From: a virus
Strand: one strand, 5' to 3'
Virus record (IMG/VR): IMGVR_UViG_3300032267_000771
Coordinates: 1 to 22,668 of that record
Length of the DNA: 22,668 bases
Shown: positions 4,285-17,090 of the stretch, piece after piece
How the letters are laid out: each line of letters starts with the position of its first letter
Position numbering within the stretch: position 1 is the first letter of the stretch
Translations under genes and position numbers: made by a program
The notes under the pieces: generated by a model
What the model was told of the DNA's origin: nothing
Database searches by the model: none
Seen by the model: the letters and a program-made list of their open reading frames with translations, nothing else

Positions 4285-4539
4285 ATGGGCTCGCCGCGTT
4301 ACATTTTCAAATGGATGACAGACGCGGAATTTGCTGCCGTGCGAGCTTATGCCGTGCAAGTGGCAACTGGGGGACAAGTTTCCAGCATTGCAGGAGGCGC
4401 GAAATCTGCCGGTTATATGCTTATGGACACTGCCGATTTCATGCTTGAATTTACCGCAGAAGTGGCACGGCGCGGAGGTCAAGTGCCAGCTAATAAAGTG
4501 TATTCAGACTTCCGAACAAGGCGCAACAATGGTTTCTAA
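4285..4539 (+). CDS. gpW-like head completion protein (84 aa)
   Basis: This 84-residue product sits directly before the portal gene, exactly where lambda W lies. Lambda gpW is a 68-residue protein that joins the filled head to the tail connector. By eye the pattern fits: an N-terminal helix MTDAEFAAVRAYAVQ resembles the Ala-rich gpW first helix, followed by a TGG turn and beta hairpin (GQVSSIAGGAKSAGY), a second helix (ADFMLEFTAEVARRGG) and a basic C-terminus ending RTRRNNGF. A 35-base gap precedes it and contains repeated AACCAA. The gene overlaps the portal start by 11 bases. The assignment combines position and a loose pattern match. Confidence 0.55.
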   Translation: MGSPRYIFKWMTDAEFAAVRAYAVQVATGGQVSSIAGGAKSAGYMLMDTADFMLEFTAEVARRGGQVPANKVYSDFRTRRNNGF

Positions 4540-7500
4540 ACCCCCGACATTTTCACCGCAGATGCAGGCCAAGATTGGAAGCATTGGCCGTATTTATTCC
4601 GCAATGGATTCGCCTTGGAAAACGGCGGTGCTTGCGGGCTACGAGGGCTCTCGGCCAAACAAATCTTTTAATGCGCCGACTCGGCAGGGCTCAAATCCCA
4701 ACTCTACGATTGCGCAGCTACAGCGGACGCGGCTTTCGCTACAGGGTGAAGAGATTATTAAGAATACGGCATTCGGACGCAACTATGTCAACAAGCGCCG
4801 CATGTATTGTTCAAGCGGCATTTCATGGCATCCTGATACCGGCGACGCGGCAACGAACAAGCTCGTCACTGATTACGTGACGGACCAATGGAAGCGAATG
4901 GGCGTCAATTCGTCCATGCAACAGACGTTTGCTCTTTGTGCCGATGCGTTCTTGCCGCAGTATGGAGATTGCGCGCTTCGCTGGATTCGTAGCGAGGAGG
5001 GCAATCCAAATTCAGACCTTCGATTGCTTGCCATTACCGGCGACAGAATTGGAGAGATTTACCGATACGTCGCGCCAGTGGTGAAAAACGGAATCACCTA
5101 CTATTGCGGACTGTATTTTGACGGGCCTAACATCCTGCAATACAAGATTTACGAGCGGTGGTATGACACGACCTATATCCGCCCCGAAAACGTAGATGCG
5201 GCCGACATTATCTTTTTTATTGATGACATCTCAGGCGGCGTGCGCGGCGTCTCGCTTTTCTCCGCAGCGGTTGACGACATTCGCAGCCGTCACGAGATTC
5301 TGAAAAGCACAAAGGACACGATGCAACAGCAGTCCAAAATGGCTGCGATTGCGTCGAATAACTCAGGGTCCGCGCCCGAATACAGCTACGACACGCAGGT
5401 CAACACGGATGGCACGATTGAGTATCAGGAGAGCTACGCGGACGGTGCGGTTGTCAAATATCAGTTCAACGGCGACAGCTACCAAGTTTTGCGCGCTGAA
5501 CATCCTTCGCAAGATTTCATCGGTGCGCTTCGCTACCTCGACGCGAACGGCTCGCTTGCGTGCGGCTTCCCTTACGAATTTCTTTTCAGCGGCGCAGAGA
5601 GCGGCGGCGCTCCGTTTCGTGGCGCGTTTGAGGCCGCAGGGCGCGAAATTGAGCGGTTGCGGAACGATGTTCATCGCCCGCGTTTGGACGTGATTGCCTA
5701 CGTGACAATCATGGACGGCGTAGAGCGCGGCTTGCTACCGGCGAAGTCTGGAATCGCGCGCGGCTCTTGGCAGTTTACGACGTTGCCGAGCGCCGATGCC
5801 TTCCGTGATGCCAAGAGCGACATTGACCAAATCCGCGCGGGCATCACCTCGCCGCAGCGCGTCATTGCGATGAGCCTTGGCACGACCGCAGACGCCATCT
5901 TGAGCGAGACCAAGCAATGGGCGATGATGGTATCAAAAACGCGGCAGGACGCGAACAAAGAGCTTTTGTCGGCTGGCTACAAAGGCGACATTACCGCCGC
6001 CGACATTGCGCAAGTTTCCGACAACCCTATGCAAGCGCAACAGGGCGAAAATCTGGCAGAGGGCAAGCCGACCAACGTAAACGATTCAAACACGAAATCC
6101 GCGACGGTGGAGAAAACCGACAGCAAGCCCGCCGCGATGGCCGATCATGACGTGAGCAGCGAAAAACGCGCAGACGATGGCAAGTGGACTTCGGGAGGCG
6201 GCGGAGGTTCTGCAAAACCCGAACACGAGACCATCAAAAGCGGCGGCGAACTTACGCGACACCTCAAAAAGAACTATGCACTTTCCACCGATGAGGCAAA
6301 GCGAGTGATTCAACAGGCGGGACTTCCCGCTGGTGCGAATACTGTTCACAAGCCAGACCAAATAAAAAAGGTATTGGACGCCGCAAGACAAATCCGCGAC
6401 GGAGGCGCTTCGGCTCCGAAAGATACAAGCCAAAAAGCAATCGCATCCGACCTTTTCAAAAGCGGGACATACGGCAAAACTTACGGCTTGGAAAAAACGG
6501 AACCGCGACAGAATGTTGGCGGCATTTATTCAACCGGAGGATGGGACTTTGAGGGAAGGCCGAATCAGGACTTCTGGAACGATTGGACAGAAAACAAAGA
6601 GGCTATGCAGGAAAAAGGATGGCGCGCATATAAAGACGGCGGCGGATACGCCATCAAGTTCACCGTGCCAATTTCACACGTTGCGCACGCTGGGTGCACT
6701 CCCGCAAAACAGGCCGCAGATGACCATTACAACAAAGCGGCGGCAATGGCCGAGTTTGATGAATCAAAACACCCGCGCGCAAAGGACGGCGAGTTTGCGA
6801 AGGGCGGCGGCGGCGGCAAGAAATCCGCAAGCCCAAACGAACCAGCTGGTAAGACCGGCGAGAAATCCGGCGAACACAAAGCGGAGGAACCGCATCGGGA
6901 CAAGCCAGACGGAGGCAGTAGCAAAGGCGCAAATCCGTCGCATGTGAAGCTTACCAATTCTCGCGTGTTGGACGAAACGGACAAAGCTCTTAAGGTGAAA
7001 GTGAATCTTGGCGAAGGCTCCATGCCGATTTGGATTCCGAAGTCTCACGCCAGCGTTTCCGATGATGGAACAGTTCACGCGGCGCAGTGGGTTTTGGACG
7101 CAAAGCACAAGGAGTTTGATACGGGATTCAATCCCGATTTGCACGGCGAACAAATCCAGACAGGAAATCCGCTAAAGCCTCCAACACCCGAAGAAATCGC
7201 GCAGCGCGAAGCCGAATCACAGCAGTGGATGAAAGAAGCGGCTGAACGAAACGAGCGGAACCAAAAAGCGCGCTCGCAAAAGGCGGCGAAGAAAGAAAAG
7301 GAACTCACGCCAGAGCAAATTGCATCGCGTGAATTGGAAGTAAAAAAGCAGGCGTCAATCAAGACTTCCCGCCGCAATGCTTTTGCAGAAGCGCAGGCCG
7401 ATTATTTTGCCAACAAGGAACTGCCGGGAAAAGAGAACGCAGAAAAGCGAAAGGCGAAGAAAGAAGAGTTTTTGAAAGACCCCGAATTTGTAAAGCGCCA

Positions 7501-7570
7501 ACTTGACCGACTCGACAGCGGATTAGCTCCGCGAGGATGGGAAGACGCAGTAATCAAAAAAGCAGCATGA
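4529..7570 (+). CDS. Portal protein (lambda B family) with a large modular C-terminal extension
   Basis: The start at 4529 (MVSKPPTFSP) gives 1013 residues; upstream in-frame starts lie inside the gpW-like gene. Residues 1 to about 520 look like a lambda-family portal, the dodecameric ring through which DNA enters. Supporting segments are IKNTAFGRNYVNKRRMYCSS, a long central domain and the conserved helix region EAAGREIERLRNDVHRPRLD. Lambda gpB is about 530 residues, so the second half is additional. It holds two similar low-complexity linkers, near 537 (SEKRADDGKWTSGGGGG) and 740 (FDESKHPRAKDGEFAKGGGG). An unknown mixed domain (about 570-730) follows the first. A beta-rich module (about 805-860, with VLDETDKALKVKVN and IWIPKS) and a long Glu/Lys-rich coiled coil (about 885-1000) follow the second. 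The stop overlaps the next start as ATGA. The function of the extension is unknown. Confidence 0.85.
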   Translation: MVSKPPTFSPQMQAKIGSIGRIYSAMDSPWKTAVLAGYEGSRPNKSFNAPTRQGSNPNSTIAQLQRTRLSLQGEEIIKNTAFGRNYVNKRRMYCSSGISWHPDTGDAATNKLVTDYVTDQWKRMGVNSSMQQTFALCADAFLPQYGDCALRWIRSEEGNPNSDLRLLAITGDRIGEIYRYVAPVVKNGITYYCGLYFDGPNILQYKIYERWYDTTYIRPENVDAADIIFFIDDISGGVRGVSLFSAAVDDIRSRHEILKSTKDTMQQQSKMAAIASNNSGSAPEYSYDTQVNTDGTIEYQESYADGAVVKYQFNGDSYQVLRAEHPSQDFIGALRYLDANGSLACGFPYEFLFSGAESGGAPFRGAFEAAGREIERLRNDVHRPRLDVIAYVTIMDGVERGLLPAKSGIARGSWQFTTLPSADAFRDAKSDIDQIRAGITSPQRVIAMSLGTTADAILSETKQWAMMVSKTRQDANKELLSAGYKGDITAADIAQVSDNPMQAQQGENLAEGKPTNVNDSNTKSATVEKTDSKPAAMADHDVSSEKRADDGKWTSGGGGGSAKPEHETIKSGGELTRHLKKNYALSTDEAKRVIQQAGLPAGANTVHKPDQIKKVLDAARQIRDGGASAPKDTSQKAIASDLFKSGTYGKTYGLEKTEPRQNVGGIYSTGGWDFEGRPNQDFWNDWTENKEAMQEKGWRAYKDGGGYAIKFTVPISHVAHAGCTPAKQAADDHYNKAAAMAEFDESKHPRAKDGEFAKGGGGGKKSASPNEPAGKTGEKSGEHKAEEPHRDKPDGGSSKGANPSHVKLTNSRVLDETDKALKVKVNLGEGSMPIWIPKSHASVSDDGTVHAAQWVLDAKHKEFDTGFNPDLHGEQIQTGNPLKPPTPEEIAQREAESQQWMKEAAERNERNQKARSQKAAKKEKELTPEQIASRELEVKKQASIKTSRRNAFAEAQADYFANKELPGKENAEKRKAKKEEFLKDPEFVKRQLDRLDSGLAPRGWEDAVIKKAA

Positions 7571-8526: not shown

Positions 8527-9561
8527 GTGCCAAAGGTCGCCGCATTACAAGCTTCGCTTAAATCTACCGCCAAAGTAGAAGGCGATACGATTTTCGGTTG
8601 CCAGCTTGCGCGCCTCGGAAAGCTTGCGCGGTTTGCAAATCCTGAGACGGGAAAGACAGAGGAGCTTCTTTGCACGCCAAAGCTCGTAGATTCGTTGCTG
8701 GCGCTTTGCAGCGAGGACAATCGTTTGTCCGCTCATTGGACGCATAAATGGATCGATGGAAACGAGGGCATTGATTCTCGCGTTGCGACGTGGCGCAACT
8801 TCCGAAAAGACGAGGGCGGAAATCTCGTTGCGGACGCTTTCCTTTGGCCGACTCCTCACAAAGAGGCGATTCTTCACGCCGCATTGAATGACCCAACGGG
8901 CATCATGGTGAGCATGGTTTTCAATTACGAAGGCGGGCGCGACGATGCTAAAGCAACTGGCGTTATGGCAGGCGACTTTGTAGGCAAGGGCGCAATGACT
9001 ACCGCCCTTCTTGCGGCACTTTCAGCAGTAACCGATTCAAACCCTAACCAAAAAACAAATATGACCGTTGAAGAACTTGTGACGATGCTGGCAGACCCTG
9101 CCGTAAAAACCGCGCTTAAATCCATGATTGATTCCCACGCTGAGCCGGACGGCGACGAGGCTGTTATGGAAGACACTGAATCCGCCGCAGTCATGGAAAA
9201 AGACGCGGGCGTTACCGATGCTGACAAGAGCGAAGCCGACAAAGACAAGCCCGCAGTGCTTCGCGCCGCACTTAATTCGATTCGCGCACTGAAGCGCCAG
9301 CTTGGCGAGAATCAGGATGCCGTGAGCGAGAAAGCCGCAGTGCTTGCCGAGGCTAAGTTTACCAAGGCAATCGGCACTGGCAAATTCAAGTTTGCAGCGC
9401 CGGCTGAAACTACGGTCCTTCCGTTTGTTGCCGTGCTGAAAAAGCATCTCGATACCGGAGCAAAGCGCCCGATTGCTATCCTTCGCGCCAAGGCTGACGC
9501 CAAGTCCGCAGATTACAATGCATGGGAAGCCGCAGGCCGCCCTATGCCCGCAGCCGTCTAA
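8527..9561 (+). CDS. Putative prohead protease with C-terminal scaffold domain
   Basis: A GTG at 8527 opens a 344-residue frame after a 52-base gap. Residues about 15-165 resemble phage maturation proteases: H70 and H73 (LSAHWTHKW), a GIDSRV stretch followed by VADAFLW, then S129 in GIMVSMVFNY as candidate nucleophile, and a trailing GDFVGKGA like the conserved end of such domains. These enzymes cleave scaffold and capsid proteins during head maturation. From about residue 179 the protein becomes acidic and helical (DGDEAVMEDTES, a Lys/Asp-rich stretch, then ALKRQLGENQDAV), the character of an internal scaffold. The order before decoration and capsid genes matches lambda C/Nu3. An internal start probably makes the scaffold alone. 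The catalytic assignment is by pattern only. Confidence 0.58.
   Translation: MPKVAALQASLKSTAKVEGDTIFGCQLARLGKLARFANPETGKTEELLCTPKLVDSLLALCSEDNRLSAHWTHKWIDGNEGIDSRVATWRNFRKDEGGNLVADAFLWPTPHKEAILHAALNDPTGIMVSMVFNYEGGRDDAKATGVMAGDFVGKGAMTTALLAALSAVTDSNPNQKTNMTVEELVTMLADPAVKTALKSMIDSHAEPDGDEAVMEDTESAAVMEKDAGVTDADKSEADKDKPAVLRAALNSIRALKRQLGENQDAVSEKAAVLAEAKFTKAIGTGKFKFAAPAETTVLPFVAVLKKHLDTGAKRPIAILRAKADAKSADYNAWEAAGRPMPAAV
9045..9060 (+). promoter_or_regulatory. TAACCA leader before the internal scaffold start
   Basis: TAACCA begins 16 bases before the internal ATG at 9061, followed by an unbroken A/C-rich spacer (AAAAACAAAT). It lies inside coding sequence for a short polar linker, so the match to the leaders of the neighbouring capsid genes is not explained by intergenic composition. 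Confidence 0.4.
9061..9561 (+). CDS. Probable nested scaffold protein from an internal start (166 aa)
   Basis: Methionine 179 of the protease/scaffold frame is preceded by TAACCA 16 bases upstream and an A-rich spacer. The same leader occurs before the decoration, capsid and second decoration genes. The residues just before it (SNPNQKTN) look like a linker, and the residues after it (MTVEELVTMLADP) begin a clean helical acidic domain. Expression from here would give a 166-residue scaffold without the protease, as lambda Nu3 is made from within gene C. This is an inference from the leader match and domain boundary. Confidence 0.45.
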   Translation: MTVEELVTMLADPAVKTALKSMIDSHAEPDGDEAVMEDTESAAVMEKDAGVTDADKSEADKDKPAVLRAALNSIRALKRQLGENQDAVSEKAAVLAEAKFTKAIGTGKFKFAAPAETTVLPFVAVLKKHLDTGAKRPIAILRAKADAKSADYNAWEAAGRPMPAAV

Positions 9562-9565
9562 CTCA

Positions 9566-9580
9566 TAACCAAACACTCAC
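9566..9580 (+). promoter_or_regulatory. TAACCA leader before decoration protein 1
   Basis: The bases TAACCAAACACTCAC directly precede the ATG at 9581. TAACCA starts 15 bases upstream of ATG. There is no purine-rich Shine-Dalgarno sequence. The element recurs at the same distance before the capsid gene and decoration protein 2. Confidence 0.5.
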
Positions 9581-9964
9581 ATGGCTACTCAAACCACATA
9601 CAACATCGGCAGCGCGCTTCGTAGCGTGAACTGCGACACGACTGCAATTGCAAGCTCCGGCCTGCGACTTGTGGTTGGTTCTACCGGACTAGTCTCGCTT
9701 GCCCCCATCGGACAGCGCGGCGTGTTCATTTCTCTTGAATCCATCGAAGCATCCAAGCCGGGTGCGGCTGCCGCGTATTTCAGCGGTGGCCAAGTTCCCG
9801 CAATCGGAACCGGCGCGACAAACATTGGAGATACCGCATATTCCGCAGCTAGCGGCCAGTTTGCCAACACCTCCGGCGCTAATGCGCTCATCGTTGGCGA
9901 ATGGGTTCAGGCTTGCCCCGGCGCCGGCCAGCTCGGCGCTGTTGAGCTTCTCGCTTCACTCTAA
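9581..9964 (+). CDS. Head decoration (cement) protein 1, DUF2190-like
   Basis: The 127-residue product lies just before the major capsid gene, the position of lambda D. It is rich in Gly, Ala, Ser and beta-forming residues. Its C-terminal half has a pattern typical of small phage cement proteins: GDTAYSAASGQFANTSG followed by NALIVGEWVQACPGAGQ and a final V-E-L strand. Such proteins bind the outside of the expanded capsid and stabilise it against internal DNA pressure. No signal peptide or transmembrane segment is seen. A TAACCA leader precedes it, consistent with strong expression. A second protein of similar style is encoded downstream of the capsid. Confidence 0.65.
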   Translation: MATQTTYNIGSALRSVNCDTTAIASSGLRLVVGSTGLVSLAPIGQRGVFISLESIEASKPGAAAAYFSGGQVPAIGTGATNIGDTAYSAASGQFANTSGANALIVGEWVQACPGAGQLGAVELLASL

Positions 9965-9983
9965 CCAATAACCATACACTAAC
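9962..9983 (+). promoter_or_regulatory. Doubled TAACCA leader before the major capsid gene
   Basis: Two copies occur, TAACCAA at 9962 and TAACCAT at 9969, ending in ACACTAAC just before the ATG at 9984. The second copy begins exactly 15 bases before ATG, as in the neighbouring leaders. The first copy overlaps the stop codon of the decoration gene. No Shine-Dalgarno sequence is present. Confidence 0.5.
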
Positions 9984-11060
9984 ATGCCTGTTTTTACTCC
10001 CACAGTCGCAACCGGACCCCGCGAGGAATTGGCGCAAGCCATCGTCGAGGGCGAAGGCGCAGTATCAAATCTCATCGGCGACAAGCTGATGCCCGACCTT
10101 CCGCTGACTAAGCGGACGGCGCATCTTCCCAAGCTCACGCTTCAGGGCGTCGAAGCCATGCGGACGCTCACGGATCAGAAGTTCCTTCGCGCTCCCGGCA
10201 CTCGCTACGAGCGCATCACGGCGCAGGTTAACGACTTCACGTTCAGCACAAACCTGATTGGTCAGGAAATCGTCATTCCAAATGAAACCAAGATGGAATG
10301 GGATGAGTATCTTGACCTCGTGGCGTTCTTCTCCGCGCAGTTCGGCACTCAGATTTCCGGTCTGACTAAGGAACTGCTCAAGGCCAACGTCCTGTTCAAT
10401 CCGGCATACACCTATCGTGGCACCGCAATCGCCGCCTCTGCCGCTTACACGGTCGCCAATCGTGACGCAGCCTTCCCCGGCTCCGGCATGAATCCGATTC
10501 AGGACATCATCGGCGCGGCTCGTTACATCAAGAGCCTTGGCGAGCTTCCCGATTCCGCTTGGATGAGCGGTCAGGTTTGGGAGCGCGTCCGCACCTGCCA
10601 GAGCACGCTTCAGTTCATCAAGGGTCTTTACGGCCCGGTGGCAGAAGTCAACGAGTCAAACTTCACGGCGGCGCTTGCTGCTCAGTGCGGCGTCAAAAAC
10701 CTCTACATCGGCGATTGCTACATCAACATTGCCGCTAGCGGTCAGGTGCCTAGCCTCACGCCGGTTTGGAGCACGGCTTACATCGGCGTCGGTCGCGCTG
10801 GTATGTCCAAAGTTGCCAGCGAAACGGACGGAGTTGGCGTGCCGACCATTTCCGGCCTTGGTGTCACCCCGTTCTGGACTGGCTTTGAAAACGGCGGTAA
10901 GCCCGTTGTTGAAGGCCCGCTCTACATGGAAGGCGGAAACTACGTCGAGACGTATCCGTCGCTGGAAATCAACTCGCTTGTCGTTCGTGTGGGCATGAGC
11001 CAAAACCCGACGATCACGAACAACCGCGCATTCGTTCTTATTGCTACCAGCTACAGCTAG
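9984..11060 (+). CDS. Major capsid protein (lambda gpE-like)
   Basis: The 358-residue product is close in length to lambda gpE (341) and follows the decoration gene as in lambda. It opens with MPVFTPTVATGPREELAQAI and has the features of the gpE-type capsid family: an N-terminal arm, LIGDKLMPDLPLTKRTAHLP, an early loop with RAPGTRYERI, a long helix (DEYLDLVAFFSAQFG), DIIGAARYIKSLGELPDSAW, the segment KNLYIGDCYIN and a C-terminal strand near YPSLEINSLVVRVG. HK97-fold capsid proteins assemble the icosahedral shell. No obvious cleavable N-terminal scaffold domain is present, which fits a separate scaffold. The doubled TAACCA leader suggests high expression. The stop is followed four bases later by the next gene. 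Confidence 0.85.
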   Translation: MPVFTPTVATGPREELAQAIVEGEGAVSNLIGDKLMPDLPLTKRTAHLPKLTLQGVEAMRTLTDQKFLRAPGTRYERITAQVNDFTFSTNLIGQEIVIPNETKMEWDEYLDLVAFFSAQFGTQISGLTKELLKANVLFNPAYTYRGTAIAASAAYTVANRDAAFPGSGMNPIQDIIGAARYIKSLGELPDSAWMSGQVWERVRTCQSTLQFIKGLYGPVAEVNESNFTAALAAQCGVKNLYIGDCYINIAASGQVPSLTPVWSTAYIGVGRAGMSKVASETDGVGVPTISGLGVTPFWTGFENGGKPVVEGPLYMEGGNYVETYPSLEINSLVVRVGMSQNPTITNNRAFVLIATSYS

Positions 11061-11064
11061 ACTT

Positions 11065-11301
11065 ATGGCAATTGAGTTTCCAGATGCGGACATTGCGGAA
11101 ACGCAGGCGGATGCGCTTACGTTGTTTCCAACGGATGACAAGTTTGCCGATGTGCCTTACAAGCACATTGAAACCGGACGGCTGTTCTTCTTGGCCGTCA
11201 CGGAACCGAACATCTACGGACGCACTCACTTCCTGAAAAACAAAAAGGAAGTTTGGGAAGGCACCGTGAAAGCATTCCGCGAGACGTTTGAGAAGGTCTA
11301 G
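11065..11301 (+). CDS. Hypothetical protein downstream of the capsid gene (78 aa)
   Basis: The ATG at 11065, four bases after the capsid stop, gives 78 residues beginning MAIEFPDADIAETQ. The N-terminal half is acidic. The C-terminal half has ETGRLFFLAVTEPNIYGRTH and then WEGTVKAFRETFEKV, a short beta-hairpin plus helix pattern. I do not recognise the family. Lambda has the packaging accessory gene FI here, but no convincing similarity is visible, so only the position is shared. The following homing endonuclease gene starts three bases after its stop. Confidence 0.7.
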   Translation: MAIEFPDADIAETQADALTLFPTDDKFADVPYKHIETGRLFFLAVTEPNIYGRTHFLKNKKEVWEGTVKAFRETFEKV

Positions 11302-11304
11302 CTC

Positions 11305-11955
11305 ATGAGCAAATCCGTTTTCATCTATTGCCTGACAGACCCGGTCTCCAGAGAGATCAGATATGTCGGAAAAGCAAAAGATGCCAAACGCCGCTTTGAG
11401 CAGCACCTTTCAAGCAAAAAAATCGGACACAAAGAAAGCTGGATTCGTGGATTAAAACTACAAGGACTCCGCCCAGAAATGGATATTCTTGAAGAAGTCC
11501 ACGAGTCCAAATGGGAAGAAAGTGAGCGCTGGTGGATTAGTTATCTTCGATTTATTGGATGTAGATTGATTAACATTGATTTTGGCGGAAGCGGAGCACA
11601 TAAGGTTTCCGATTCAATGCGAGAGAAATGCCGATTGATTCATCTCGGAAAGAAGAGAACGCCAGAGTCGCGTGAGAAAATGAGACTCGCGCAGTTAGGA
11701 AAAAAGCGTTCTCTGGAATCTATAGAGAAACGCAGAATGGCAGTTATTGGAAAACGGAAAGGTATTCCAATGCATCCAAATGCGCTTGCCGCATTAGTTA
11801 AATTCCATACTGGAAGAAAACAATCGCCCGAACAAGTCGCAAAAAGAGCCGCGAGCCTTTCTGGAAAAAAGCGCACTGGAGAAACATTGGAAAAGATGCG
11901 CAAACTTTGTGCAATAATGCGTGAGCGTAAGGCCGCAAAAGCAATACTAGCATGA
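11305..11955 (+). CDS. Free-standing GIY-YIG homing endonuclease with NUMOD3 repeats
   Basis: The 216-residue product has an N-terminal GIY-YIG nuclease domain (about 1-98): IYCL at 7-10, YVG at 20-22, the catalytic Arg in KRRFEQH (R29 or R30), a likely catalytic Glu in ESERWWI (E74) and the LIN element with N90. Residues 110-205 contain four NUMOD3-like DNA-binding repeats: GKKRTPESREKMR, GKKRSLESIEKRR, GRKQSPEQVAKRA and GKKRTGETLEKMR. Such enzymes cut a specific site and spread by copying themselves into it. The gene is A-richer than its neighbours and uses eight AGA arginine codons, which are rare in adjacent structural genes, a sign of recent transfer. It also has an SD-like GAAGG upstream, unlike most genes here. 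No intron is evident. The stop overlaps the next start as ATGA. Confidence 0.9.
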   Translation: MSKSVFIYCLTDPVSREIRYVGKAKDAKRRFEQHLSSKKIGHKESWIRGLKLQGLRPEMDILEEVHESKWEESERWWISYLRFIGCRLINIDFGGSGAHKVSDSMREKCRLIHLGKKRTPESREKMRLAQLGKKRSLESIEKRRMAVIGKRKGIPMHPNALAALVKFHTGRKQSPEQVAKRAASLSGKKRTGETLEKMRKLCAIMRERKAAKAILA

Positions 11956-12614
11956 GCAAAGAAAAAATTTATATCCCATTTTTAGATAATGGCTCAAAAT
12001 CAGTGACGGCGCACAATCATTTTTCAATGGTGTTCGCCGCGCTGACTGCGCTTAAGGGGCGCGACGTTGCACTTGCTAGTTTCTCGCATCCTTGCCCGGC
12101 AGCAACGGGGAATTACGCAACCCACCATTTCCTTGAGAGCAACTGTGACCGCATGGTTATCGTGGACTTGGATATTCAGTTCACGCCAAAGCAGCTTGAA
12201 ATGCTTTTGAGTCATGAGGTGCCGATTGTTGCGGGCGTTTATCCCAAGAAACAGCCGGGACTAACGCTTAACTTGCAAGTCCTAAATAAGAACCACTTTG
12301 CGGTTGATGACGCAGAAATCCAAGCCAATCCGCTAGTTGAGGTCGAATGGGTAGCGCGTGGTTTTATGACCATTCATCGCTCAGTATTTGAGGCGATGGA
12401 GCATGAATCTCCAATTGTGGACATGGACGGCAGCATCGTCCGCGAATACTGGCGCACGCTTCCCGGTGGACATAGCGAAGACAAAGAGTTTTGCCAGCAT
12501 TGGCGCAAGCTTGGCGGCAAGATTCTTGTAGATCAGCGGCTTTGTGTTCAGCACGAAGGCAGCATCCTTTTTCCAATTCCCGGCACCTACGGGGACAAAT
12601 CAAAAGCAGCATAA
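11952..12614 (+). CDS. Glycosyltransferase-like protein 3 (GT-A type)
   Basis: The 220-residue product starts at an ATGA overlap with the homing endonuclease. It has the layout of a phage GT-A glycosyltransferase: an early strand (KIYIPFLDNGSKS), a helix, then a hydrophobic strand ending in a clear DxD motif (VIVDLDIQF, D72 and D74). PKQLEMLLSHEVPIVAGVYP follows, a pattern often seen in such enzymes. WVARGFMTIHRSVFEAM and GHSEDKEFCQHWRKLGGKI, with a late VQH, fit the acceptor and second metal-ligand region. It would transfer a sugar from a nucleotide donor; the acceptor is unknown. It lies between the capsid and decoration protein 2 genes, which makes virion glycosylation a natural hypothesis. 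It may have arrived together with the adjacent homing endonuclease. Confidence 0.75.
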   Translation: MSKEKIYIPFLDNGSKSVTAHNHFSMVFAALTALKGRDVALASFSHPCPAATGNYATHHFLESNCDRMVIVDLDIQFTPKQLEMLLSHEVPIVAGVYPKKQPGLTLNLQVLNKNHFAVDDAEIQANPLVEVEWVARGFMTIHRSVFEAMEHESPIVDMDGSIVREYWRTLPGGHSEDKEFCQHWRKLGGKILVDQRLCVQHEGSILFPIPGTYGDKSKAA

Positions 12615-12626
12615 CCAACAATTCAC
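12612..12626 (+). promoter_or_regulatory. TAACCA leader before decoration protein 2
   Basis: TAACCAACAATTCAC directly precedes the ATG at 12627, with TAACCA starting 15 bases upstream of ATG and overlapping the stop codon of the glycosyltransferase gene. Its spacing matches that before the capsid and first decoration genes. Confidence 0.5.
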
Positions 12627-13034
12627 ATGGCAGACAAATCCATTACCGCCGCAAACGTCCTTTCATCGCTTACGTCCTTTAACGTCAAGATTGCCGCCGC
12701 GCCCATTACGCGAGGGCAGGCGATTTACTTGCTTGCCGCTGGCACGGTTGGCCTTGCCGACAGCAATGGCGTTGCTCCGTCTAATACTGTAGAAGGCATT
12801 GCGCTTGCGGATTGCGGAACCGCACAGCCTTGCATTTACCAAAGCCTTGACGCTAATTTTACTCCCGGTTTCACGGACACGGCGGGAAATACGGTTTATT
12901 TGAGCAACACCAGCGGAGGCATTACCACGACCTACGCGGACATTGCCAGCGGCTCAACCGTAATTGTTTTGGGTGGAATGCTCACCAGCACGACCATGAA
13001 GCTGGCTCCGCAAACTTACGGCACGAAGCCCTAA
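12627..13034 (+). CDS. Second decoration/cement-type protein (DUF2190-like)
   Basis: The 135-residue product is rich in Ala, Thr, Gly and short strands. It has the run AAPITRGQAIYLLAAGTVGL followed by NTVEGIALADC and then FTDTAGNTVYLSNTSGG, a pattern shared with small phage capsid cement proteins of the DUF2190 kind. An Ile-Val-rich strand (STVIVLGGM) follows near the end. It probably binds the capsid surface or the vertices. The capsid-type leader suggests abundant synthesis. It is not a simple copy of the first decoration protein. It might instead be a head fibre base or a small tail component; the evidence is pattern and position. Confidence 0.5.
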   Translation: MADKSITAANVLSSLTSFNVKIAAAPITRGQAIYLLAAGTVGLADSNGVAPSNTVEGIALADCGTAQPCIYQSLDANFTPGFTDTAGNTVYLSNTSGGITTTYADIASGSTVIVLGGMLTSTTMKLAPQTYGTKP

Positions 13035-13037
13035 TGT

Positions 13038-13370
13038 ATGACGTTGGAAGCCTTAGCACTAAGCCGGGCAAACGAGACGCTTCTTGTCAAGTTTCCCGAC
13101 GCGCTTTGGTTTAACGGCGTAGAATATGGCTGCATTGCCCCGCCTGTTGAGTTGCTGAAAAAAATGCAGCTTAACATGTATGACGCGAATGCTATGGCTC
13201 AATTTCAGATGCGCGAGAGTGACCGCGCTACCGCTGGCATTAGCTCGCTTGCCCGCTCTGTGATTACCTACAAGCACCCGACGCTTGGCGAGTTTGCCTT
13301 CGAGGTGACGGATATGTTTACGGACAAAAACGACACGATGATTCGCCTTGTCTGCAATCTCAAACAATAA
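13038..13370 (+). CDS. Putative head-tail joining protein (lambda FII position)
   Basis: The 110-residue product begins MTLEALALSRANETLL and is close in size to lambda gpFII (117). It combines a beta-rich framework (FNGVEYGCIAPP, EFAFEVTDMFTDKND, MIRLVCNL) with a helical insertion (ELLKKMQLNMYDANAM). Small beta-barrel proteins of this kind cap the filled head and provide the tail docking face. It lies immediately before the Z-like gene, as FII does in lambda. The stop and next start overlap as TAATG. The assignment is mainly positional. Confidence 0.45.
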   Translation: MTLEALALSRANETLLVKFPDALWFNGVEYGCIAPPVELLKKMQLNMYDANAMAQFQMRESDRATAGISSLARSVITYKHPTLGEFAFEVTDMFTDKNDTMIRLVCNLKQ

Positions 13371-13960
13371 TGGCAACCGGCTTCCGAGTCTCAACCGATA
13401 ACATGCGAAAGAAGCTAGGCGCTATTCGCAAACAGGTTCGTGCCTTGGCATTCAAAGGCGAGGTTTCGGACTTTACGCGGCAGTCGCTTTCCCTTGCGTG
13501 CAAGACTACGCCGACTCGTGAGCTTGACGTTATTCGATATAACCAAATCGAGAAAAAGAACTCGCAATACGACCTCTGGCAGCAGCATGGCGGCACCGGC
13601 GTTACTCAGCGCGATTGGCTGGCGTCACGCGCACCAGCTCGCTTTCTTTATCAGCTTTCATGGGTGCAGGTGGCATACTCGGCAGGGCTGTCCTTTCCCG
13701 TATCTGCAAACGTCTTGGCAGCGACAACCCGCAATCCCGATGAACCGGAACCGCAGCGCGGATATGCACAATGGCGCGGCGGAAAATTCACGCTCTCTGT
13801 CGCCATTTACAACCCGTTTTTGGAGACGCCACAGCGGGAGTATAAGAACTTTATGGGCAGCGAAATCCTTGGAGCGGCAATGGAGAAAAAGCGCCCGCAG
13901 TTCATCAAGCGCGTTGAGCGCCAGCTAAAGCGAATCCTCTACGCTATCCAACACGCATGA
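13370..13960 (+). CDS. Putative tail completion / minor tail protein (lambda Z position)
   Basis: The 196-residue product overlaps the preceding stop (TAATG) and ends in an ATGA overlap with the next gene. Its length equals that of lambda gpZ (192) within a few residues. The N-terminal region is basic and helical (NMRKKLGAIRKQVRALAF), followed by LACKTTPTRELDVIRYN, a stretch similar in style to gpZ/HK97 gp10 proteins where small tail-completion proteins carry a TP-T-G element. The C-terminus is a basic helix (KRVERQLKRILYAI). These proteins act at the tail end that joins the head. No enzymatic motif is visible. Confidence 0.5.
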   Translation: MATGFRVSTDNMRKKLGAIRKQVRALAFKGEVSDFTRQSLSLACKTTPTRELDVIRYNQIEKKNSQYDLWQQHGGTGVTQRDWLASRAPARFLYQLSWVQVAYSAGLSFPVSANVLAATTRNPDEPEPQRGYAQWRGGKFTLSVAIYNPFLETPQREYKNFMGSEILGAAMEKKRPQFIKRVERQLKRILYAIQHA

Positions 13961-14445
13961 CGCTCTACGAACTACTCCAATACGAGCGGCACATTGAGGA
14001 CACGTTGATTGCAATGCTCGGCGCTGTGTGTGAAAACGTCTATCGTTCTCGCACGTCAAACACCGCGCAGACTCCGCGCCTAGAAGTCAAGGCGTTTTCA
14101 GGCGAAGTATTTCAGCGGCAACAGACGCCAATCGCTGCGGCTCCCGGTTGGATTTATTCCACGTTTGACGGGCGTATTGAAATCACAGCCAAGACGAATC
14201 GAACCTCGGCGCAAAAGACTGACGCGCATATTGAGCTAATCGGAAAGGTGCGCTCAATTCTACAGCAGTTTGCCGTTGTCGCATGGCAGAACGCGCAGAC
14301 TGCCTTGCTGCCCATCCTGCTAATTGACATCCGCGACGCTGGCACAGACGACGCCGTTGCCGACACCGACGACATTGACGCGACAACGCTTCGCTGCGGA
14401 ATCCTTTTCTCAATCAACCCGAACGCAATCCCATCCAACCTATAA
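13957..14445 (+). CDS. Putative tail terminator (lambda U position)
   Basis: The 162-residue product starts at an ATGA overlap with the Z-like gene. A short N-terminal helix (LLQYERHIEDTLIAML) precedes beta-rich segments (RLEVKAFSGEV, GRIEITAKTNRTS) and a long helix (DAHIELIGKVRSILQQFA), with a late strand ending in RCGILFSINPN. This alpha/beta layout and the order Z-U-V fit tail terminator proteins, which cap the growing tail tube and stop polymerisation at the tape-measure length. Lambda gpU is 131 residues. The Asp-rich loop (DAVADTDDIDA) is unusual but might bind a metal ion. The call rests on layout and position. Confidence 0.5.
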   Translation: MTLYELLQYERHIEDTLIAMLGAVCENVYRSRTSNTAQTPRLEVKAFSGEVFQRQQTPIAAAPGWIYSTFDGRIEITAKTNRTSAQKTDAHIELIGKVRSILQQFAVVAWQNAQTALLPILLIDIRDAGTDDAVADTDDIDATTLRCGILFSINPNAIPSNL

Positions 14446-14451
14446 AACACT
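14437..14451 (+). promoter_or_regulatory. AACC leader before the putative tail tube gene
   Basis: AACCTATAAAACACT precedes the ATG at 14452. AACC lies 15 bases upstream with an A/C-rich spacer, a partial match to the TAACCA leaders of the capsid genes. There is no Shine-Dalgarno sequence. Confidence 0.3.
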
Positions 14452-14832
14452 ATGGCTGTTCCTAATGAAATTCTTGACGGCGCTCCTCCGCATGGCACTT
14501 CTACCGTCACCATCAATTCGGTGACTTACATCGTCAACAAAGAGACGATCACGCCGGAATGGAAGTCCGCTGAAAACAGCACGTCAACCGGCAGACCGAA
14601 TCAAATGGTTCTGGTAAAAGGCCGCTACAAGATCGTGTTTGAGCTACAGCTTGCCAGTAGCGGCACGGCGTTTCCGCCTCCGGGCGCTACCTTTACGCGC
14701 ACGCCCCCAAATGAATCGTCTCCAATCACGTTTTTCGTCAGCGAAGTTCCCTACGAGGCAACGAACGAGGTGCAAATCCGCGTTGCGAACGTAACGGCGC
14801 TTGAGGCAATCGCAACCATCACCACGGCCTAA
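14452..14832 (+). CDS. Putative major tail (tube) protein
   Basis: The 126-residue product begins MAVPNEILDGAPPHGTS and is predominantly beta: STVTINSVTYIVNKETITPE, then a basic strand (GRYKIVFELQLAS), a Pro-rich loop (FPPPGATFTR) and a C-terminal strand pair (NEVQIRVANVTALEAI). The position after the U-like gene is that of lambda V, the tail tube subunit. It is half the size of gpV but close to the tube-forming N-terminal domain alone, so it would lack the Ig-like decoration domain. The A/C-rich leader is similar to those of the capsid genes, as expected for an abundant protein. Confidence 0.5.
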   Translation: MAVPNEILDGAPPHGTSTVTINSVTYIVNKETITPEWKSAENSTSTGRPNQMVLVKGRYKIVFELQLASSGTAFPPPGATFTRTPPNESSPITFFVSEVPYEATNEVQIRVANVTALEAIATITTA

Positions 14833-15532: not shown

Positions 15533-17089
15533 ATGGCCGGAAAAAACGACATCATTGCTCAGGCTGGCGTCTCCCTTGAGGATTTCGAGAAGGGGATGGA
15601 CAAAATCAATTCGCGCATGGATGGCCTAGAGGCTAAAGCGGAATCCACCGGCAAAAAAGTTGACGGTGCGTTTAAGCGGATGGGCAACAGCATCAAACAG
15701 GCGTTTGGAGCGGCTGCTATCGGGCAAGGCATTGGCGACATGATTGCCAGCTTCACTCAGGTCAATCGCAAGGCGGGCGAGGTTGACGAGGGGTTTATCG
15801 CAATGGGCGAATCGGCGCAAACTGGAACCGAAAAAGCAAAAGTCGCTTTTGCAAAGTTCGCAGCAGGCGCAGCAAGCTTGCTTTCCTTCGGTGCCACAAA
15901 ACCACTGACAGATGCGCCCTTAAAACAAGCGATTGATGAGCAGCGCATTCGCAAAGAACTCACCACTCAGGCGCAGACCTACGACGAAATTATTGCCAAG
16001 GTTCGCCGGTTGCAAGACCTCAAGCTTACCGAAGCGGCCAAGGGCGAGCGAAACCTTGCCATTCAAAAGCAGATTTCCGAACTTACCGCAAAGGCCGAAG
16101 CGATTACCGCCAAGCAAGCCGAGCTAGTTTCCGATACTACGGTCGGCGCAGAACAGCGCCTTGCAATGCAGCGCGTTGAAATTCAGAACGAGCAGAAGAA
16201 AGCCGAGCTTGCAAACAAACTGCGCGACCTTGGCGGCAATCGCACCGCAGAGGACAACAAGGCTTTTGCGGCAGGCGCAGCGCTTGCAGACGCAGAAGCC
16301 GAGCGGCAGAAGAAAGACATTCAGTTTTCAGCGCAAAAGGAGGAATCAGAAGCCCGCTATCTTGACGTAGCCAAGGATAGCAACATCTCCGCAGAGTCGC
16401 AGATTAATAAGCTGCTTACTCAAAACGCCGAGATTCAAGTGCAGATCACAAAAGCCAAAGAGCTTTACGGCGTCAATTCGCTAGCGGTAAAGCAGCTTGA
16501 AAATCAGGCGCATGAGCTAGACATTCAATCGCAAGAATTAGAGCACAATCTGGACATGACAAAAACGGCGGCGCGTGTCGCAACCGAAACGCTGAACGCC
16601 GAGCTTTCCGGCAATCGTCAGCTTTCCGCGCTGCTTAAAAACCGCGTGGAATATGAGCAGAAAATTAAGCAGGCGATGCACGAAAAGCGCGACGACATCG
16701 CAAAAGAACTTCGCACACAGCAGGCGCTAAACGAGCTTGCCATTCGTGCCGCTGAAATCCGCAAGACGCCACAGCAGCGGGCGGCAGACCGAAAAGAACA
16801 ACAGGCAAACGACCAAGCGCAACGGCTCGCCAACGCCCGCGACAAGGCGCAGAAAGCAGCAGAGGCACGCGATGCCGCCGCAGATGAAAAGAACCGGCGC
16901 TTTGGATTCAAGCCACGCGAAAACCCGTCATTCCGTCGCGCCGGAGAGTTTGTCAGCCCCGCCGCCGAACTGGCGCGCAAAGACTTTGTAGCGCGGCAAC
17001 CGTTGAATCCCGCGCCCGCTGCGCCCGCTGCTAAAAATGCGGAATTGAAAACCGATTCAATTCGCACTAACTCATTCATCATTAACTAA
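15533..17089 (+). CDS. Tape measure protein
   Basis: The 518-residue product begins MAGKNDIIAQAGVSLEDFEK and is rich in Ala, Glu, Lys and Gln with almost continuous heptad-like helices, typical of tape measure proteins. These run through the tail tube and set its length, and may help deliver DNA. Residues about 55-75 (FGAAAIGQGIGDMIASF) form a mildly hydrophobic segment; the middle is coiled coil and the end is Pro/Ala-rich (LNPAPAAPAAKNA). Tape measures correlate with roughly 0.15 nm of tail per residue, which would give a tail near 80 nm, an estimate. It is short for the family (lambda gpH is 853). The start follows the preceding stop as TAA-C-ATG. Confidence 0.75.
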   Translation: MAGKNDIIAQAGVSLEDFEKGMDKINSRMDGLEAKAESTGKKVDGAFKRMGNSIKQAFGAAAIGQGIGDMIASFTQVNRKAGEVDEGFIAMGESAQTGTEKAKVAFAKFAAGAASLLSFGATKPLTDAPLKQAIDEQRIRKELTTQAQTYDEIIAKVRRLQDLKLTEAAKGERNLAIQKQISELTAKAEAITAKQAELVSDTTVGAEQRLAMQRVEIQNEQKKAELANKLRDLGGNRTAEDNKAFAAGAALADAEAERQKKDIQFSAQKEESEARYLDVAKDSNISAESQINKLLTQNAEIQVQITKAKELYGVNSLAVKQLENQAHELDIQSQELEHNLDMTKTAARVATETLNAELSGNRQLSALLKNRVEYEQKIKQAMHEKRDDIAKELRTQQALNELAIRAAEIRKTPQQRAADRKEQQANDQAQRLANARDKAQKAAEARDAAADEKNRRFGFKPRENPSFRRAGEFVSPAAELARKDFVARQPLNPAPAAPAAKNAELKTDSIRTNSFIIN

Positions 17090-17090
17090 C

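Follow-up and report, generated by a model that had tools for sequence, protein, structure and literature searches.

The stretch of DNA analysed here, positions 1 to 22,668 of the virus record IMGVR_UViG_3300032267_000771 (hereafter the window), carries lambda-like packaging and head genes followed by tail genes, in the order GpA-type terminase, portal-size open reading frame (ORF), protease/scaffold ORF, decoration protein, major capsid protein and tail genes. The subject of this report is the short leader upstream of a few of these virion genes, in which the hexamer TAACCA lies at a fixed distance from the ATG and the usual Shine-Dalgarno (SD) sequence is lacking (Table 1).

Table 1. Leaders and associated virion genes of the window (leader offsets are counted from the first base of the start codon)
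Feature	Position	Strand	Remarks
TAACCA at -16 of internal ATG 9061	9045..9060	+	G-free leader within ORF 8527-9561
Putative internal scaffold product	9061..9561	+	Assigned from position and leader
Decoration 1 leader, TAACCAAACACTCAC	9566..9580	+	Motif at -15, between genes; preceding gene stops at -22
Head decoration protein 1, 127 amino acids	9581..9964	+	Fold resembles capsid decoration proteins of phages, best E=2e-5
Capsid double TAACCA leader	9962..9983	+	Copies at -22 and -15; TAA at -22 is the decoration 1 stop codon
Major capsid protein, 358 amino acids	9984..11060	+	PHROG 1005 major head protein, E=1.1e-12
Decoration 2 leader, TAACCAACAATTCAC	12612..12626	+	Motif at -15; its TAA also ends the preceding gene
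Probable decoration/cement protein 2, 135 amino acids	12627..13034	+	Phage_cement_2 match under its cut-off; leader common to relatives
Tail tube leader, G-free	14431..14451	+	AACC at -15; relatives L033, L034 and L017 have TAAC at -15
Putative tail tube protein, 126 amino acids	14452..14832	+	Low-confidence beta model, weak matches
G-free unstructured leader, ACTAACTCATTCATCATTAACTAAC	17066..17090	+	No TAAC at -15; precedes a tail-module gene

The capsid assignment is shared by all 12 aligned members of its family, each of which matches PHROG 1005. Decoration protein 1 of the window has no PHROG match itself, although 11 of the 16 members of its family match PHROG 122 (head decoration), and its fold resembles the capsid decoration proteins of HFTV1 and Pam3 and the head-fibre base of phi29. 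Weak fold matches of the product starting at 14452, obtained with a low-confidence model, point chiefly to proteins of the phage tail tube and baseplate. The protease/scaffold ORF (8527-9561) has a GTG start, and an internal ATG at 9061 follows a G-free TAACCA leader, an arrangement suggestive of a nested scaffold in the manner of lambda C/Nu3. From their assigned roles, the motif-bearing virion proteins are presumably made in high copy number.

Results

A position-fixed leader without Shine-Dalgarno sequence

The original prediction, made by inspection of the sequence, held that TAACCA at a constant distance replaces the SD at the virion genes expected in highest copy number, and its placements were all borne out. 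Copies beginning at 9566, 9969 and 12612 each lie 15 bases before an ATG (9581, 9984 and 12627), an extra copy at 9962 falls at -22 of the capsid ATG, and the one at 9045 precedes the internal ATG by 16 bases. Ahead of the tail-tube gene AACC begins at -15, and its register is one base off from that of the other leaders. GGAG, GAGG and AGGA are absent between -18 and -5 at all 25 starts called in the window, and a canonical, purine-rich GGAGG-like SD at about -12 to -7 is accordingly lacking. As a bare hexamer TAACCA is not rare, with eight copies on both strands against 4.9 expected, a count reached by 15 of 100 shuffles. Three of the seven plus-strand copies nevertheless sit at -15 of the called starts (P about 5e-8, or about 3e-6 once 60 offsets are allowed for), and it is therefore the position, rather than the number of hexamers, that is improbable.

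The leader is also selective for gene class. Across the window and two further phages (G001 and G008), TAAC occupies -15 in 9 of 12 virion genes as compared with 2 of 116 other genes (P=6e-10), so that the motif is not equally frequent elsewhere.

Conservation in relatives

Relatives were chosen through capsid homology rather than through the motif, down to 32% capsid identity; a set of phages of 66% GC with a 24% identical capsid was left aside. Leaders of the decoration 1, capsid, decoration 2 and tube genes were taken from these relatives, those containing an SD were excluded, and leaders of the same gene that were at least 80% identical were collapsed, to give 30 non-redundant SD-less leaders, in which the starts are predicted and orthologues are partly dependent even once collapsed. 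TAAC stands exactly at -15 in 14 of the 30, against a mean of 0.56 in dinucleotide shuffles that keep leader composition; none of 3000 shuffles reached 14. The runner-up position, -22, is occupied in six leaders, where TAAC mostly derives from upstream stops. Mean G content in the final 20 nucleotides of the 30 leaders is 2%. At the same virion genes a further 11 leaders, chiefly from L025-L028, are of SD type, and mostly read CGGAG then TAAC. In the sister clade L024-L028 as a whole, decoration 1 and capsid leaders are mostly CGGAGTAAC, with the SD directly abutting TAAC, as if the TAAC spacer had been kept alongside an SD.

Anatomy of the leader

Among the 14 leaders selected for T-15, A-14, A-13 and C-12, C-11 and A-10 are each present in 11, A-6 and A-3 each in 10, and there is almost no G. 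Comparison of the 12 virion leaders with other genes of the three phages gives frequencies of 0.83 against 0.39 for A-6 and 0.67 against 0.37 for A-3; A-14 is found in all 12 virion genes and A-13 in nine, yet -12 and -11 carry C. The predicted unpaired fraction is 0.80, compared with 0.54 for other starts (P=6e-4). The motif of the original prediction is thus real, but the functional unit appears larger than TAACCA, and comprises, besides UAAC(C)A at -15, the adenines at -6 and -3 and the absence of G from the leader.

The view of TAACCA as a leader element likewise stands as to position, with the qualification that some of its TAA triplets are upstream stop codons. In the window this applies to the copies at 12612 and 9962, and not to those at 9566 and 9969. 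In the sites examined, the TAA at -15 is the upstream stop in the window decoration 2 leader and in L033, L037 and L104; it is intergenic in the window decoration 1 and capsid leaders and in L034 (tube), L038, L080 and L084; and it lies inside an upstream reading frame that stops at -4 in L061 and L064. As the distance to the downstream AUG is the sole constant in these three coding contexts, the motif is placed relative to that AUG and not to the upstream gene; this points to a signal that is read relative to the start codon, and hence in translation. In L061 and L064 the motif constrains the C-terminal codons of the gene upstream of the tail tube (frame L-T-T-D-stop).

Recurrence in unrelated phages

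A pattern built from the leaders of the window family itself, TAACCACNNACTNACATGGC, matched 104 viral contigs in IMG/VR, and every match opens an ORF; as the pattern was designed on that family, the count represents one big tube clade plus about seven further families. Approximately 77 of the 104 belong to a single tail-tube family of 128-129 amino acids (Pfam PF06199, PHROG 1407) with no sequence kinship to the tube of the window. The remainder include a family of 150-158 amino acids, an S74-type tail-fibre-like protein, a possible head-decoration protein (a weak assignment), the decoration and tube genes of the window family, and a protein of 900 amino acids that also bears GGAG. This last (MASFDL..., 5 of 104 contigs) reads GGAGTAACCAC, and so has an SD too; its family of 900-907 amino acids (L076, L083, L090, L091 and L141), unrelated to the others and of about 40% GC, carries GGAGTAACCACNTACTNACATGGC, in which an SD and TAACCAC are combined. 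Controls in which the spacing was one base longer, or the hexamer permuted at the same composition, gave one match each, and replacement of ATGGC by ATGA gave four, most of which do not lie at real genes. A scan with looser spacing (CTAACCACN{2,12}ACATGGC) peaked at -15 among the matches listed, which also contained an additional family of 155-161 amino acids; its matches at -18 to -21 were set aside as coincidence, there being often a real GGAG between motif and ATG.

Together these data show the motif to be kept in related and unrelated phages alike. Further copies of TAACCA at -15 numbered three among 652 starts in the first 80 motif-selected loci, so the motif is no general feature of all genes there. 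In the tail-tube phage group, TAACC lies at -15 of 11 among 185 called starts in 11 phages, and in L061 and L064 it maps to the tube gene. Roseobacter phage CRP-811, whose tube is related to that of the collection, has a leader with AGGAGG. Since the same genes carry CGGAG in L025-L028, and the CRP-811 tube AGGAGG, the motif occupies the site of ribosome binding.

Discussion

A probable SD-independent initiation signal

We consider it probable, from the distribution and placement of the motif, that the leader is a cis-acting, SD-independent signal for translation initiation, which replaces the SD at the most abundant virion genes. The original prediction had invoked another mode of ribosome recruitment, through ribosomal protein S1 or an unstructured A/C-rich leader, and this is the best-supported reading, given that leaders with the motif have no SD and that the sister clade has GGAG at the same genes. 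Our best reading is more specifically that it corresponds to the S1-proximal element of Flavobacterium type, in a form rich in C. The leader of approximately 20-25 nucleotides, almost without G, would stay single-stranded, with UAAC(C)A occupying -15 to -10 and a preference for A at -6 and -3; AUG GC is a common start. When the AUG occupies the P site, the element at -15/-10 would be positioned beside S1, at the point where the mRNA exits the 30S platform, and A-6 and A-3 may act as the Kozak-like positions described for Flavobacterium. We infer that the signal acts in translation, that S1 is its reader, and that the host ribosomes make poor use of the SD. Leaderless mRNAs are argued against by the position of these genes within a co-directional block.

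Several observations weigh against this reading. Some family members keep the G-free leader and lack TAAC at -15, and the hexamer is hence not indispensable. C-12 and C-11 are the rule in the phage leaders, contrary to the preference in Flavobacterium johnsoniae (PMC6847099), and the effect of ACA motifs in Salmonella is independent of a fixed spacing, unlike the phage leaders (PMC3879156). The extended motif occurs only four times in the 257 Gb of a collection of 84,980 prokaryote genomes; either that collection does not include the hosts, or the hosts make no use of the motif in this form. The four matches (Lachnospiraceae, Glaciecola, a gammaproteobacterial metagenome-assembled genome and Microbulbifer) are scattered and were taken as chance.

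Of the competing explanations, one based on composition survives best, and is itself unlikely. Any G-free, unstructured A/C-rich stretch might suffice, with the surplus of TAAC supplied by upstream TAA stops at a typical spacing; G depletion is indeed the most uniform feature of the leaders, TAA is an upstream stop in some cases, and the TAAC peak at -22 reflects such stops. However, the shuffles that keep composition yield far fewer leaders with TAAC at -15 than were observed (0.56 versus 14), a permuted hexamer or one extra base of spacing abolishes the matches, and the -15 TAA is no upstream stop in decoration 1, the capsid, the L034 tube, L080, L084, L061 or L064.

There is little to recommend an operator through which a phage or host regulator would control late virion translation in trans, although the motif is confined to virion genes within each phage and is nearly absent from prokaryote genomes. 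Phages from unrelated families share it, the ten records searched contained no homologue of S1 or S21, and without an SD the site would have to recruit, and not merely block. Still harder to sustain is pairing of the motif with 16S rRNA outside the anti-SD, for example of CUAACCAC with helix 45 (GCGGUUGG). The top match in Escherichia coli, at position 1523, forms 7 of 8 pairs with one G-U, but this pairing segment is buried in a stable helix, and the 16S compared may not be that of the host. The helix 45 segment reads GCGGCUGG in many bacteria, which also counts against such pairing. Pairing with 16S was likewise proposed for the epsilon element of T7, and was not supported (PMC8748333). A transcription signal such as the -10 element of a late promoter is equally improbable, for while the motif is phage-restricted and found at strongly expressed genes, its distance is fixed to the AUG and not to another DNA element, nothing upstream of -25 is by eye shared among the three window copies, the transcript would have to start within about 8 nucleotides of the AUG, and in relatives an SD takes the same site.

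A stronger form of the initiation signal, in which the ribosomes of an SD-poor bacterial lineage read UAAC(C)A at a fixed -15 through S1 or a platform pocket as a sequence-specific substitute for the SD, is conceivable but doubtful. On that view, many phages of the lineage that are not related to one another would have arrived convergently at this signal for the virion proteins they make in the largest amounts.

Comparison with known initiation systems

The nearest counterpart is the initiation region of Bacteroidia, whose ribosomes conceal the anti-SD in a bS21/bS18/bS6 pocket. Ribosome profiling and reporters in F. johnsoniae revealed that adenines at -14 to -11, near S1, and at -6 and -3 raise translation, whereas substitution of A-12 or A-13 lowers expression, and UCCC at -14 to -11 strongly so (PMC6847099). 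The phage leaders resemble this region in lacking an SD, in A-6 and A-3, and in low structure around the start (PMC6847099); of the S1-proximal adenines at about -14 to -11 they have mostly A-14 and A-13. They differ in the element itself (UAACCA, with C-12 and C-11), in the 48-58% GC of the phages, and in their restriction to a few virion genes. The A/C-rich ACA motifs of Salmonella (yifK, dppA), which are proven translation enhancers, are similar as G-poor upstream sequences that boost initiation, but they work with an SD and without fixed spacing, while the phage leaders have no SD and a fixed spacing (PMC3879156). In the T7 gene 10 leader, too, a major capsid gene has an upstream enhancer of its own, epsilon, for which S1 has been proposed as reader; it differs from the phage leaders in being A/U-rich, paired with an SD, and variable in its position relative to that SD (PMC8748333). 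The phage leaders lack the UUAACUUUA upstream of an SD that typifies epsilon, having no SD and the sequence UAACCA. The omega leader of tobacco mosaic virus, G-free and rich in CAA and UUAC, can replace an SD in bacteria (E. coli), but it is a plant-virus leader of about 68 nucleotides without a fixed hexamer at -15. A literature search returned no paper describing the present motif.

Host and significance

Our guess is that the host may belong to the Verrucomicrobiota, some of which are reported to be SD-scarce (PMC10783764). Terminases of distant kinship (20-22% identity) occur in phage P8625, which infects Puniceicoccales, and in Akkermansia phage Moulinsart; at some structural genes these two phages have leaders that are SD-poor, or partly G-free and TAAC-containing. 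In search of a prophage from which the host could be recognised, the capsid profile was run against the same 84,980 prokaryote genomes, and found no relative.

How start codons are found without an SD is an open question for many bacterial phyla, in which the known determinants are diffuse. A compact, position-locked and phage-amplified signal on what are presumably the strongest phage genes would make this question testable with short reporters. Sequence alone could then flag phages of SD-poor hosts together with their abundant virion genes, and the leaders are candidate expression elements for hosts in which E. coli parts fail.

Other features of the window and its relatives

Scans of the window for Rfam families and tRNAs found nothing. 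The ORF at the portal position (4331-7570) encodes more than 1000 amino acids with a long C-terminal part, and has no PHROG match except a weak one. The helicase of the relative G001 (L169:15443-16867) is 55% identical over its full length to that of cyanophage S-H1, a phage with no leader of the type described here. Between the capsid gene and the gene at 11952 sits an ORF for a GIY-YIG homing endonuclease (PHROG 314; 11305-11955), which the relative L012 lacks; L013 has a different one (41% identity).

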